In this document: positions 49,014 through 53,572 of the stretch, in pieces
Position numbering within the stretch: position 1 is the stretch's first letter
Layout of the letters: every line of letters starts with the position of its first letter
NCBI RefSeq assembly: GCF_004339525.1
Contig: NZ_SMGE01000001.1
Coordinates: 6,448,001-6,512,000, forward strand
Direction of reading: 5' to 3'
From: Flavobacterium sp. 90
GTDB taxonomy: Bacteria; Bacteroidota; Bacteroidia; Flavobacteriales; Flavobacteriaceae
Length of the DNA: 64,000 nucleotides
Notes under the pieces: generated by a model
The model's input: only the letters and a program-made list of their open reading frames with translations
What the model was told of the DNA's origin: nothing
Databases searched by the model: none
Made by a program: the position numbers and the translations under genes

Positions 49014-50303
49014 ATGAAATACTATAGTTTAAACCATAATGCCCCAAAAGTTTCTTTTCAGGAAGCTGTAATACAAGGATTAGCGAGTGATAAAGGATTA
49101 TATTTCCCCGAAAACATCACCGCTTTAGATCCGTCATTTTTTGATAAAATCGAAAGTTTAAGCCACGAAGAAATCGCTTTTGAAGTGATCAAACAATTTG
49201 TAGGCGATGAAATTCCTGCAGAAAAACTAAAAGAAATTATTGCCGATACTTTAGTTTTTGATTTTCCGGTTGTGAAAGTTGAAGAAGGCATTTATTCCTT
49301 AGAATTATTTCACGGACCAACAATGGCTTTCAAAGATGTTGGAGCGCGATTTATGTCACGTTGTCTTGGCTATTTCAATAAAGACAAAAAAGACAGTAAA
49401 AACACCGTTTTGGTAGCAACTTCGGGAGATACCGGCGGCGCTGTTGCAAGCGGATTTCTGGGTGTTGACGGCGTTGATGTTGTGATTTTATATCCGTCAG
49501 GAAAAGTAAGCGATATTCAGGAAAAACAATTGACGACTTTAGGGCAAAATATTAAAGCTCTTGAAGTTGATGGCGTTTTTGATGATTGTCAGGATATGGT
49601 AAAAAAAGCGTTTTTGGATGAAACTTTGGCGCATAAAAACCTAACCTCAGCAAACTCTATAAATATTGCACGTTGGCTGCCACAAATGTTCTATTTTTTC
49701 TTTGCTTACAAAGCTTTGAAAAGCCAAAACAAACCGTTGGTTTTCTCTTGTCCAAGTGGGAATTTCGGGAATATATGTGCCGGAATTATGGCAAAGAAAT
49801 TAGGTTTACCAATCGAACATTTTGTAGCTTCTACAAACGTAAATGATACTGTACCAAGATTCTTAGAAAGCGGAAAATACGATCCAAAACCTTCTAAAGC
49901 TACAATTTCTAACGCAATGGACGTTGGAAACCCAAGTAACTTTATTAGAATTCAGGAATTATATAATAATGATTTAAAAGCTTTCGAAAAAGACTTTTCT
50001 TCTTATAGTTATACTGATGAAGAAACGCTTGTTGCCTTAAAAAACATCTACAAAGTCGACGGTTATATTGCAGAACCACACGGCGCAGTTGGATATTTAG
50101 GTTTAAAGAAAGAATTGCAAAAACATGAAAACGCAATTGGTGTTTTCTTAGAAACGGCACATCCTATCAAGTTTCTTGACGTTGTTGAACCTGCTTTAGG
50201 AATTACACTTCCGATTCCAGAACAAATTAAAAGTGTTATTAATGAGGAGAAAGTGAGTGTGAAGATTGGGACTTATGAGGAATTGAAAGATTTCTTGGGG
50301 TAA
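49014..50303 (+). CDS. thrC: Threonine synthase
   Basis: Makes threonine from phosphohomoserine with PLP. The 429-residue protein has the N-terminal YYSLNHNAPKVSFQEAVIQGL typical of bacterial ThrC, the PLP lysine Lys107 in HGPTMAFKDVGARF, ATSGDTGGAVASGF for phosphate binding, and FSCPSGNFGNICAGI. It belongs to the shorter class II form. Last gene of the thr operon, followed by a palindromic terminator 30 bp downstream. Confidence 0.96.
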   Translation: MKYYSLNHNAPKVSFQEAVIQGLASDKGLYFPENITALDPSFFDKIESLSHEEIAFEVIKQFVGDEIPAEKLKEIIADTLVFDFPVVKVEEGIYSLELFHGPTMAFKDVGARFMSRCLGYFNKDKKDSKNTVLVATSGDTGGAVASGFLGVDGVDVVILYPSGKVSDIQEKQLTTLGQNIKALEVDGVFDDCQDMVKKAFLDETLAHKNLTSANSINIARWLPQMFYFFFAYKALKSQNKPLVFSCPSGNFGNICAGIMAKKLGLPIEHFVASTNVNDTVPRFLESGKYDPKPSKATISNAMDVGNPSNFIRIQELYNNDLKAFEKDFSSYSYTDEETLVALKNIYKVDGYIAEPHGAVGYLGLKKELQKHENAIGVFLETAHPIKFLDVVEPALGITLPIPEQIKSVINEEKVSVKIGTYEELKDFLG

Positions 50304-50327
50304 ACTATTTTTATTAAACAATATTAT

Positions 50328-50363
50328 TAAAACGGCTGAAATTAATTTCAGCCATTTTTTTTT
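50328..50363 (+). terminator. Terminator of the thr operon
   Basis: The perfect 20-bp palindrome GGCTGAAATTAATTTCAGCC (50334-50353), extended by A and T flanks, followed by a T9 run. Confidence 0.85.
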
Positions 50364-50447
50364 AATGCATTCCAATAAAATTATTTTAAGTTAGCAATAA
50401 AAAATATCAAGTACGGAAATCCGTAAAAATTGGCAAGAAAAAATACA

Positions 50448-50455
50448 TATATTTG
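50448..50455 (+). promoter_or_regulatory. -7 box upstream of the DUF4145 gene
   Basis: TATATTTG matches TAnnTTTG, 108 bp before the ATG. It implies a long 5' leader of about 100 nt, in which I see no clear structure. Confidence 0.4.
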
Positions 50456-50563
50456 AAAAGCAAGAAAACAAAATAAACCTTTCTTTTTCTAAATTAATTT
50501 AGATACAATTTTTTGTTTCCTCTGCAAATCAGTTATTGAAAAATCAACTTTAAATTATAATAT

Positions 50564-51214
50564 ATGGCAAGTGTTAATAGTCCAAATGGTGCAAATACGA
50601 CGAATGGCAACCCTGATCAGTGTCCTTATTGTCATAACAAAATAACCCCTGTAAATATTTACAGTTTTCACAATCCAAAAACTCGTTTATTGGATGTATT
50701 GCAAAAATGTCCAAATGAACAATGCTCGCTGACTTTTATTGCATATTACTCACATATTGGAGGTGCTTCTTTTGTTTATACTGGAAAAACCACACAGGGA
50801 AGTTTGATAGGAAAAGTCTTTTCACAAACCATTATTGATATTTCCCTTGCTTTTAATATCATTTATAATCAAGCTTTTACTGCTGAACAACAAGGTTTAG
50901 ATGAAATATGTGGTGTTGGTTATCGTAAAGCTTTAGAATTTCTAATTAAGGAATATGCAATTAAAAATAACCCCGAAAAGAAAGATGCAATTGAAAAGAA
51001 ACTCCTTGGTTCTTGTATTGCAGAACATGTCGACGACACAAGAATCAAAGCAGTTGCAAAAAGAGCTGTTTGGTTAGGAAATGATGAAACACATTATATA
51101 AAAAAATGGGAAGGAAAAAATCTTGAAGATTTGAAAAAACTAATTGAATTAACTGTTCATTGGATTGAAATGGAAGTATTATCCAAAAGCTTTGAAGAAG
51201 AAATGCCTGAATAA
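50564..51214 (+). CDS. DUF4145 protein with N-terminal zinc ribbon
   Basis: A 216-residue soluble protein. Two CxxC-type knuckles (CPYC near residue 21 and CPNEQC near 50) form a zinc ribbon. The remainder is a helical DUF4145 domain, recognised by GVGYRKALEFLIKEYAI near 125 and RAVWLGNDETHYIKKWEGKNLEDLKKLI near 170. DUF4145 occurs alone and attached to nucleases or restriction components in bacterial defence loci, but its activity is not established. It lies 110 bp before a caspase-like gene on the same strand, in an accessory stretch. Function here is unknown; pairing with the next gene is suggestive. Confidence 0.8.
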   Translation: MASVNSPNGANTTNGNPDQCPYCHNKITPVNIYSFHNPKTRLLDVLQKCPNEQCSLTFIAYYSHIGGASFVYTGKTTQGSLIGKVFSQTIIDISLAFNIIYNQAFTAEQQGLDEICGVGYRKALEFLIKEYAIKNNPEKKDAIEKKLLGSCIAEHVDDTRIKAVAKRAVWLGNDETHYIKKWEGKNLEDLKKLIELTVHWIEMEVLSKSFEEEMPE

Positions 51215-51324
51215 TCATTCGGATTTGTTAGCTTAATGCAAAGCTTTTGTTTTCAAAAATTCAAATAATAGTCTTAATTAATTAGTACTAGAACATTGAC
51301 ATTAATACAAACATCTTATTTAAA

Positions 51325-52146
51325 ATGAAACAATTAGAATTCTCACATATTTTTGTAATAGAGAGCTTACGTCCAGAAGACGAACTTACAGGCACAAGAT
51401 TATTTAATCGTGCAATATATCCTGGAATGGTAGATAAGAATTTGGAGTCTAATTGTGATCATATAAATGTGATTTCTAAACAAGATTTTTTTAATGCATT
51501 ATTGAACATAAAACATAAAATTATCTCAGAAAACATTTCTCCAATAATACATTTAGAAATGCACGGCAGTAAAAATGGACTACAGCTTACAAGTCATGAA
51601 AGAATAACTTGGGAAGAATTACAACCAATATTGATTGATTTAAACATATTATGTAAAAACAATTTATTTTTGACTATGGCAACATGTTTTGGTGGATATA
51701 TTTATAATGCAATATCCCCAAGGCTTCAATCTCCATTTTGGGGCTTTGTTGGGCCTTTTGAAGAAGTTGATGAAGATGAAGTTTTAGCAGACTTTACAAA
51801 TTTTTACTTTGAATTACTAAATTCTTTAGACTTGAATGCAGCTGAAATAGCTTTACATCGACAAAATGCTCCAAATGCTTCAAAATTCAAATTCCAAAAT
51901 ATTGAATTTGTTTTTAAAAAGGTATACGAAAACTACGAGTTAAAGCACTTAACTCCTGAACGCATTAAAGAGAGACTTCAACAAATAGAGGAAGAATTTA
52001 GAAAAGCAGGAGAATATCCTGATTGGACATCAGAGAGAATACATACAGTTGCAAGAAATATTATCGTAGACCAAAATGACAAAATTAAAGAAAACTTAAT
52101 GACAAAATTCTTTATGCGGGACATCTATCCAGAGCTAAGGAACTAA
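51325..52146 (+). CDS. Caspase-like (clan CD, CHAT-type) cysteine protease candidate
   Basis: A 273-residue protein without signal peptide. The hydrophobic strand IIHLEMHG ends with His80-Gly81, and a second strand NNLFLTMATC ends with Cys121; the H-G then A-x-C pattern and the 41-residue His-Cys spacing match clan CD proteases (caspases, CHAT). A later segment, FWGFVGPFEEVDEDEVLADFTNFYFELL (about 140-167), resembles the post-cysteine helix region of CHAT domains. The C-terminal 85 residues are helical and charged. No recognised sensor domain is fused. The neighbour is a DUF4145 zinc-ribbon protein. I infer a protease that may act in phage defence or cell death; this is not shown. Confidence 0.6.
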   Translation: MKQLEFSHIFVIESLRPEDELTGTRLFNRAIYPGMVDKNLESNCDHINVISKQDFFNALLNIKHKIISENISPIIHLEMHGSKNGLQLTSHERITWEELQPILIDLNILCKNNLFLTMATCFGGYIYNAISPRLQSPFWGFVGPFEEVDEDEVLADFTNFYFELLNSLDLNAAEIALHRQNAPNASKFKFQNIEFVFKKVYENYELKHLTPERIKERLQQIEEEFRKAGEYPDWTSERIHTVARNIIVDQNDKIKENLMTKFFMRDIYPELRN

Positions 52147-52183
52147 TTAAAATCCCTTTCACCCGCTAACGCGAGCATAGGAA

Positions 52184-52402
52184 TTATGCTATGTAACTTC
52201 CATCTTCAGCAATGTTAAGCGAATCAGCTAACACATGGATAAAAGAATCTTTATCATTTTGACTTTCAAACTTACAATTTATTGCTAAACCAAAATATCC
52301 ATCTTCTATTTCAAAATCAATTTTAGGGCTAAATCCTTTTATAAATTCAGCAACTTTTTTTGTTGCGCTATTTGAACTAGATTGAAAAGCATATTCTATC
52401 AT
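52184..52402 (-). CDS. Small hypothetical protein
   Basis: A 72-residue protein without signal peptide or membrane segment, predicted alpha/beta (KKVAEFIKGF helix, then FEIEDGYFGLAINCKFES strands, then a final helix). No family recognised. It is supported as a real gene by the -7 box TATTTTTG on the minus strand 28 bp before its ATG and by lack of overlap with other genes. It lies convergent to the caspase-like gene and downstream of an XRE regulator. Confidence 0.55.
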   Translation of the reverse strand: MIEYAFQSSSNSATKKVAEFIKGFSPKIDFEIEDGYFGLAINCKFESQNDKDSFIHVLADSLNIAEDGSYIA

Positions 52403-52430
52403 GACGTAATTTTTTTGTTAATACATATAA

Positions 52431-52438
52431 CAAAAATA
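52431..52438 (-). promoter_or_regulatory. -7 box for the 72-residue small protein gene
   Basis: Minus-strand TATTTTTG matches TAnnTTTG, 28 bp before the ATG at 52402. Confidence 0.35.
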
Positions 52439-52610
52439 GTAATTATTTATTAAATGAAAATTATTAATAATTTTTAACTATCAAAAAAAAAAAGAAGCTT
52501 AAAAATTTTGAAAACTTGAAAAACGTAGATAAATAAGTGAATAGCCATAACATAACAGCCCCTGTTAGCGTGAGTGTCCCGCTCATGAACACAAAGTTGA
52601 ACATAAATAA

Positions 52611-52640
52611 AAAAAAGAGACCTCATCAAAGGTCTCTTCT
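52611..52640 (-). terminator. Terminator of the XRE regulator gene
   Basis: On the minus strand AGAGACC pairs with GGTCTCT across an 8-nt loop, followed by a T run, 26 bp after the stop of the regulator gene. Confidence 0.8.
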
Positions 52641-52665
52641 CATTTTAATATATATTCAAAAAACA

Positions 52666-53061
52666 TTATTTCCCGTTCAATAACTTCTCCAAATACTCAA
52701 CTTTATCTTTTTCAGCTTGCACCAAACGTTCGTAAAGTTCTACAACTTTATCTAAAGGATTAAAAGTGCAATTAAAATTACCTGTCGTAGTCGAAAGCGT
52801 ACCATTATCTTGAATGGTATTTCCAATAATATTAAAAACCGCTTCTTCCGAAAAGCTCTTAATTGCTTCAGCAGAAACTCCAAGAACTTTTGCTATCTCA
52901 ATTAATCTTTGTTCGTCTACAGTTTCACTGTTTTCAATAGCCGAAATCGTCTGCTGACTTATTCCTAAAGCCTGCGCCAGAGCTTCCTGTTTCATATCTT
53001 TAAGCTCTCTGATACGGCTTATATTTCTGCCGATATGTTTTGGTTTTATTGCTGTACTCAT
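52666..53061 (-). CDS. XRE-family helix-turn-helix transcriptional regulator
   Basis: A 131-residue protein with an HTH_3 domain at residues 10-65 (IRELKDMKQEALAQALGISQQTISAIENSE, recognition helix near 38-48) and a C-terminal helical segment (about 100-131) likely to mediate dimerisation. The ATG at 53061 lies only 4 bp after a good -7 box, so the mRNA may be leaderless and the gene autoregulated. It could control the small gene downstream or the neighbouring caspase/DUF4145 pair, but operator sites are not evident. Single-gene unit with its own terminator. Confidence 0.88.
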   Translation of the reverse strand: MSTAIKPKHIGRNISRIRELKDMKQEALAQALGISQQTISAIENSETVDEQRLIEIAKVLGVSAEAIKSFSEEAVFNIIGNTIQDNGTLSTTTGNFNCTFNPLDKVVELYERLVQAEKDKVEYLEKLLNGK

Positions 53062-53065
53062 AATT

Positions 53066-53073
53066 CAAAGATA
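53066..53073 (-). promoter_or_regulatory. -7 box overlapping the XRE gene start region
   Basis: Minus-strand TATCTTTG matches TAnnTTTG exactly and ends 4 bp before the ATG at 53061. With the usual distance of about 7 bp to the start point, transcription should begin at or beside the start codon. Confidence 0.55.
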
Positions 53074-53572
53074 TTTAAAATTCTTAGACGAAAATAAGTT
53101 TAAGTAAAAAACAAACTGTTTTTGTAAGATACGCTTTTCATAATTTATATAAATTGACAAATTCGGCTTTAGCCAAAAAATACCAAAGATTCGGCTAAAA
53201 TTATTTCCTAATGTAATTCTGTTTCTTCAGCTAAAGCTCAATGTCATTAAGTTAAGCTTTAAAGAGTAAATTTATTACAAATTAAATCCGTTTTTATCCG
53301 CGTTTTTACGGAGTAAATCTGTTTTATCCGCGTCAAAATTAGCCGCTGATTTTACCGATTCGCTAAAGCGAAAACGCTGATAAAAACGGATTTTTCTATA
53401 TTTTTTTAACCAAATTACTACAAATTAAGACAGATAATATTCCTTAAATATTATTGCATCTTTTACGGCTTCCCGTAAAAAAATAATGGAAATAAAATCG
53501 ACATTTGTCTACAATAAATCAAGGTTGAGAATTACTCAGAAATCAAAATAAACCAAAATCCAAAAACTACAA
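53074..53572. repeat. Gene-free region with an AAATCCGTTTTTATC inverted repeat
   Basis: Holds GGCTTTAGCC/AGCTAAAGCT words (about 53160-53250), a repeat element at 53284-53393 bounded by perfect 15-bp inverted arms (AAATCCGTTTTTATC and its complement) with TTTATCCGCG words inside, and a small hairpin TTTTACGG-CTTC-CCGTAAAA at about 53462-53480. No open frame and no obvious promoter for the next gene. Confidence 0.6.

Follow-up and report, generated by a model that had tools for sequence, protein, structure and literature searches.

What do two adjacent genes in the window (the whole stretch of 64,000 nucleotides analysed here, positions 6448001-6512000 of a Flavobacterium genome) do: act together against viruses, or does one of them act by itself? 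The first (50564-51214, + strand) encodes a DUF4145 protein of 216 aa, predicted to be a zinc-ribbon and HEPN-type protein, and the second (51325-52146, + strand) a protein of 273 aa, predicted to be a stand-alone caspase-like (clan CD) cysteine peptidase. Their coordinates bear out the original prediction of two same-strand neighbours, 110 bp apart. The protease, with one match in its genome (6.65 Mb, single contig), probably acts against viruses by itself and not as one half of a fixed pair of genes, since its relatives often appear singly beside very different anti-virus systems.

Both genes lie in an accessory block of about 2.1 kb (50505-52603), which is one of the alternative contents of a variable slot behind thrC and also contains a 72-aa ORF (52184-52402, - strand). 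These approximate boundaries are set where homology to genus mates stops and restarts: in blastn comparisons with four genomes of the genus (L081-L084), homology through thrC ends at 50504, 50476, 50316 and 50477, and it restarts at 52604, 52604 and 52605 in three of the four, the first of these right-edge matches reaching only 52779 and the fourth genome being without the XRE side of the slot. In each of the four genomes the slot is filled by different accessory genes. The cargo in genomes of the genus other than the window's presumably includes kinase-like and HNH-like genes and others, as judged from motifs. An XRE/Cro-type regulator gene (52666-53061, - strand; HTH_3, E 5.8e-15) forms the right flank of the slot; the stretch homologous to it is kept in L082 and L084, partly in L081, and absent in L083. 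Since homology restarts at 52604-52605, this gene is a conserved flank rather than part of the accessory block. The 72-residue gene and the XRE regulator had both been named as neighbours in an accessory stretch; both are present, but the regulator lies outside that stretch by blastn. As a part of a module it was discarded, homologous DNA continuing beyond the slot. Between block and regulator, a pattern scan alone indicated a terminator-like hairpin for both strands (52612-52641). Rfam at gathering scores gave no match across 50200-53200, and the block edges carry no repeats convincing as an insertion signature. For the 72-aa ORF, there was no match in Pfam, PADLOC or PHROG and a single sub-threshold one in NCBIfam (E 0.13); tblastn over the collected loci returned only copies of the window's own locus.

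The protease is predicted to consist of a core (residues 1-195) and a helical tail (196-273). A motif H76-x-E78-x-H80-G81 (51550-51567, + strand) ends the strand formed by residues 73-82, with H80 as the predicted catalytic base, and the predicted catalytic cysteine, C121 (codon 51685-51687, + strand), stands just past strand 115-119. His80-Gly81 and A119-T120-C121 are present with the 41-residue spacing that had been claimed for them. Of the six-frame ORFs in 20 control windows that reach 200 aa or more (129), two have HG...C at about the same spacing and none has HxExHG...C; because of this rarity, the HG...C arrangement is more than chance.

H76, H80, G81 and N107 are conserved in all 48 aligned members, E78 is kept in 45 and replaced by D in three, C121 is present in all 47 members reaching that position (L052 is truncated), and G123, found in 43 of the 48, is not invariant; this invariance is partly by construction, because 33 relatives had been fetched by patterns on HxExHG or N..L..C. 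The less biased relatives are those found by profile, those on plasmids and the nine (seven from the genus, two from the family) that make up alignment A1 together with the window protein; in its ten sequences H76, E78, H80, G81, C121 and G123 are invariant. The 48 members represent 48 of 49 loci, with L036 left out for want of a closed ORF, and include the window's own protein and four near-identical pairs (44 members at 85% identity). Identities of the relatives to the window protease range from 21 to 35%. His80 and Cys121, whose conservation the original prediction had made decisive for its caspase-like reading, are therefore conserved, and the predicted fold, the topology and the invariant His and Cys all agree with that reading.

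In the prediction the protease has the caspase alpha/beta fold of clan CD, His-Gly ending one strand and Cys following the next, and its fold relatives include legumain. Sequence matches are faint: the single sequence gave Peptidase_C13 (PF01650) at E 0.05 over residues 74-128, with 13.6 bits vs a cut-off of 22.8, and a C13 match was obtained for one of ten family members. When the A1 profile was compared with the PDB, GPI transamidase (a C13 peptidase) appeared at E 0.025, H80 falling on GHG and C121 on DTCQG; a profile of 32 sequences (A2) gave no peptidase there and matched only by its helical tail (best E 0.11). No match to CHAT (PF12770) at E <=1 was found for the window protease or for any of the ten members, nor any match in single-sequence scans of PADLOC and NCBIfam. 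The protease does match PHROG 38219, a family without assigned function (E 3e-11). Filing it under CHAT or C13 was rejected on these grounds, there being no PF12770 match for the one and a score below the Pfam cut-off for the other; caspase topology and the conserved Cys also fit better than a metalloprotease reading of HxExH. The assignment as a clan CD caspase-like peptidase, predicted from the modelled fold, holds. The versions of Pfam, NCBIfam and PADLOC that were searched do not name the family; with no description of it recognised in the open-licence PMC literature, it is apparently undescribed.

By whole-protein search, relatives occur in seven of 397 other genomes of the genus; we found two solid ones in 298 other genomes of the family, and six of 295 other genomes of the phylum carry one, so that the protease is present in about 2% of genomes. 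A family-level match in G064 (E 4e-4) covers only residues 120-255, lies within an open frame of 806 aa and was discarded as probable chance. The pattern search returned 33 contigs titled Bacteroidota or Proteobacteria, some overlapping genomes already found. Relatives were further detected in 20 plasmid records and three viral contigs, and none in the phage collection. From this distribution, the protease appears as a scattered, rare and horizontally moved gene. On a Klebsiella plasmid (NZ_CP096816.1), a distant relative with 22% identity is flanked by repB on one side and a metallophosphoesterase/AAA ATPase pair on the other; relatives of this kind occur in 16 Klebsiella plasmid records, of which 12 measure 109-117 kb. 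At another locus (L047:9522-10438) the homologue is split over two overlapping ORFs and apparently broken.

For ten genomes we compared the ORFs of 100 aa or more lying within 6 kb of the protease (79) with 191 control ORFs drawn from those contigs at 20 random windows of 12 kb (sets of 87 and 104); this controlled comparison is small, and its tallies are pooled across windows. Among the best 25 of 159 PADLOC families tallied for the neighbours, at least five of the 79 ORFs match at E <=1e-60, to RT_UG13a, SIR2-pAgo, HEC-05, PDC-M16A and a type II methylase. At the same threshold there are no matches among the 87 ORFs of the first control set, for which the tally is complete, and only PDC-S02 models, eight with one member each, in the second, i.e. 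at least one and at most eight of 104 ORFs among the best 25 of 83 families. Weaker PADLOC matches among the controls include BrxH, DpdF, PsyrT, PD-T4-9_C and others. A strong defence neighbour is seen in five of the ten surroundings (L012, L013, L014, L015 and L018) and, among the matches listed, in none of the window's own, L016, L017, L019 and L020.

Defence neighbours were also recorded as DRT UG13a, HEC-05, PDC-M16A and Mrr; one relative lies beside an EcoO109I-type restriction gene and methylase, and on a Burkholderia plasmid a nucleotidyltransferase and a CBASS-annotated phospholipase are found within 5 kb of the protease. Pfam revealed AbiTii and HipA genes near relatives, in a tally of the best 25 of 121 families over 106 of 109 selected ORFs (omitted were the longest ones of L035 and L050, ~1960 aa each, and the protease piece L047:9522-9758). 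Ten neighbour proteins examined individually were hand-picked. On a viral contig (L098:5456-10804), genes which, going by their motifs, presumably encode an OLD-like ATPase and a UvrD-like helicase, in a Gabija-like arrangement, immediately precede the protease. Ordinary genes adjoin the protease at several loci (lysyl-tRNA synthetase-like, comM-like, ribonucleotide reductase and polysaccharide genes), so the defence context is frequent, not universal. At L045:8854-10819, for example, the protease directly follows the gene for the ribonucleotide reductase small chain. Any constant partner gene was ruled out, no gene family being near the protease in more than six of 39 loci; the most frequent recurring neighbour family is HTH regulators, in at most six of the 39.

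We favour, with some confidence, the reading that the protease is a single-gene clan CD peptidase (caspase/CHAT type, dyad His80-Cys121) acting as a horizontally moved immune effector. To this point the modelled caspase fold, the conserved dyad, the predicted core with its helical tail, the rare and scattered spread and the frequent defence neighbours. The protease would rest inactive until a phage product or infection signal binds to it or to its tail and switches it on; it would then cut one or more host or phage proteins, and the infected cell would no longer support the phage. The adjacent DUF4145 gene would be a separate HEPN-type zinc-ribbon defence or phage gene in the same slot. As a candidate switch for the protease, neither a sensor domain nor a constant partner gene was found. 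The question posed by the family is how a caspase core that is conserved, some 270 residues long and located next to many unrelated systems, with neither a fused sensor seen nor a constant partner, is restrained and triggered; small size and conserved dyad make the protease easy to test.

A different answer would be that the protease is an accessory effector using whichever adjacent system does the sensing (SIR2, Argonaute, DRT or CBASS). Very different systems indeed adjoin it in different genomes, sometimes closely. At L042:6813-10489, the same place as L018, a SIR2-Argonaute gene lies 53 bp upstream of a shortened protease copy (165 aa) that has retained His and Cys and lost the remainder of the core. 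The protease of L129 stands 49 bp behind a gene for what we take, from a glycine-rich motif, to be a SIR2-like protein, for which Pfam gave no SIR2 match. However, many loci, the window included, have no complete known system alongside, and gene order and strand around the protease differ between loci; we therefore hold a borrowed sensor to be unlikely. A parallel may be seen in trypsin-nuclease pairs, which according to passages of one paper are common to unrelated defence systems (PMC12799240).

The DUF4145 protein has cysteines in the arrangements C20-x2-C23 and C49-x4-C54, so that of the two CxxC knuckles claimed one (C20/C23) stands and the second is a Cx4C (C49/C54). The DUF4145 domain itself is matched at E 9.8e-4, but its 19.6 bits fall below Pfam's cut-off of 23.1 bits. 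The protein carries G172-N-D-x-x-H177, with Gly172 in all 36 rows of the DUF4145 alignment A7 and Arg in L085, and it lacks the Rx4-6H RNase motif of HEPN. In HEPN RNases N-x3-H is preceded by an arginine; Gly172 takes its place in this subfamily, whose RNase activity is doubtful because of this replacement. Zinc-ribbon fusions and restriction-modification operons of DUF4145 HEPN proteins figure in parts of the literature (PMC3710099). The protein is encoded in eight of 398 genomes of the genus, 46 records of the phage collection and 15 plasmid records; its gene, common and independently mobile, belongs to phages and defence islands and has no obligate partner. The claim that DUF4145 proteins occur in bacterial defence loci, and the protease in a defence context, is supported for each gene. 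A second DUF4145 domain is encoded elsewhere in the window's genome (G000:C1:529532-529810). On a Chryseobacterium plasmid (L217:3023-8773), genes for a nucleotidyltransferase, a pore-forming effector, DUF4145 and HsdR stand in a row, directly preceded by a DUF4062 gene.

The two genes might nevertheless form a module, in which infection would make the protease cleave or otherwise activate the HEPN-type zinc-ribbon protein, or would make that protein set the protease free, in a Canu-like manner. Such a paired module had been proposed in the original prediction, and the same strand and close spacing within one replaceable block are in its favour; it mostly fails on the counts. In the genus sample (n=398), eight genomes have the protease, and the window's genome alone has both genes. 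Within the phylum sample (n=296), seven have the protease, three the DUF4145 protein and two both, namely the window's genome and G915, a distant Bacteroidota genome; the DUF4145 profile with which this co-occurrence was counted had been built with the G915 protein included. In both genomes the genes, of the same subfamily, are adjacent, with the order reversed in G915. There (locus L132:8351-10052) the protease gene comes first and the zinc-ribbon DUF4145 gene second. A nearby ORF of that locus is presumably Vsr-like, by its motif. A DUF4145 profile run over 49 protease loci matched the window and L132 and no others. A zinc-ribbon DUF4145 gene lies no more than 700 bp from the protease in three of 43 loci (the window, L132 and L099), hence in two of 42 other loci, where the 43 omit L036, the truncated L052, the near copies L033, L048, L093, L097 and L128, and repeat retrievals of contigs already included (L012-L015, L017-L020). 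The gene of L099 belongs to a different subfamily and is 668 bp off on the opposite strand.

No plasmid record is common to the 20 with the protease and the 15 with the DUF4145 protein, none of the 46 phage records with DUF4145 has the protease, nor is it present in any of 80 stretches of viral contigs that carry the DUF4145 protein; stretches around seven other genus copies and four plasmid or phage copies of DUF4145 gave no match to the protease profile. Together with the genus counts, this non-overlap rules out obligate pairing. Only 24 of 198 phylum genomes yielded a DUF4145 domain, in a search that missed the window's own copy, and chance adjacency is therefore unlikely genome-wide; yet both genes favour defence islands, by which adjacency is inflated. 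The rate of two in 42 lies above that expected by chance, in a comparison that is genome-wide and not island-matched, and marks an association, though no obligate pair. As a check on the proposed module, co-occurrence thus speaks against it in that the genes are rarely together, and for it by the adjacency in G915 and the nearby gene of L099. This recurrence counts mildly for a partner and against the one-gene reading. Judged from sequence, the two genes are occasional companions, their pairing weakly supported, and a two-gene module is of low probability.

Decidedly improbable, in our view, is a bolder combination, a caspase-HEPN module in which the zinc-ribbon protein, devoid of the RNase arginine, would sense phage nucleic acid and unleash the sensor-less caspase core, or be its gated substrate; gene order could flip, as in G915, and in most genomes the partner would have been swapped for another sensor, e.g. 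SIR2-Argonaute. If true, a bacterial caspase would here be used as an exchangeable effector cartridge. We regard as very unlikely that the protease serves housekeeping, stress or maturation (legumain-like processing or toxin-antitoxin control): such a role is compatible with its fold relatives, which include legumain and, at a weak sequence level, GPI transamidase, with ordinary neighbours at several loci and with a cyanobacterial caspase homologue that cleaves an antitoxin, according to part of one source (PMC7935541), but the gene is patchy, rare, plasmid-borne and often adjoins defence genes.

The single-gene immune effector that we favour can be compared with known systems. In passages of two papers, caspase-like immune proteases belong to multi-part systems, namely type III CRISPR, gasdermin/CARD, NLR, Thoeris and Canu (PMC12799240, PMC12847820). 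The SAVED-CHAT protein of type III CRISPR (PDB 8tl0) has a fused SAVED sensor, whereas the window protease has no SAVED or CHAT match in Pfam, and none of the four window genes scanned is a CRISPR gene. Csx29/TPR-CHAT (Craspase, type III-E) resembles it in the His-Cys dyad, its two residues being, in the parts of the sources used, 42 (H585/C627; PMC9729208) or 43 (H615/C658; PMC10028731) positions apart and those of the window protease 41; the TPR-CHAT protein of Craspase, however, is bound to an RNA-guided complex, whereas the window protein is a bare protease core. Canu, whose caspase-family protease is likewise bacterial and located in defence islands (an excerpt of PMC12799240), comprises an Ig-like domain, CanB and a gated MBL-fold nuclease, and the four window genes scanned include none of these; where Canu has the adjacent nuclease and CanB, the neighbours here are the DUF4145 gene, the 72-aa ORF and the XRE gene. 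Type IV Thoeris, whose caspase-like effector is said to degrade cellular proteins (part of PMC12847820, citing Rousset 2025), has a TIR gene in its operon, whereas none lies beside the window protease, which may nevertheless belong to the same family. Borvo is a defence system to which a CHAT protease is assigned, listed as PF12770 in the portion of PMC10952713 concerned. The window protease matches neither PF12770 nor PADLOC. Borvo, which we take to be a single-gene system, may be an exception to the multi-part rule. Bacterial caspase-like immune proteases are already known; what is new here is a family without the sensors or partners that the systems compared possess.
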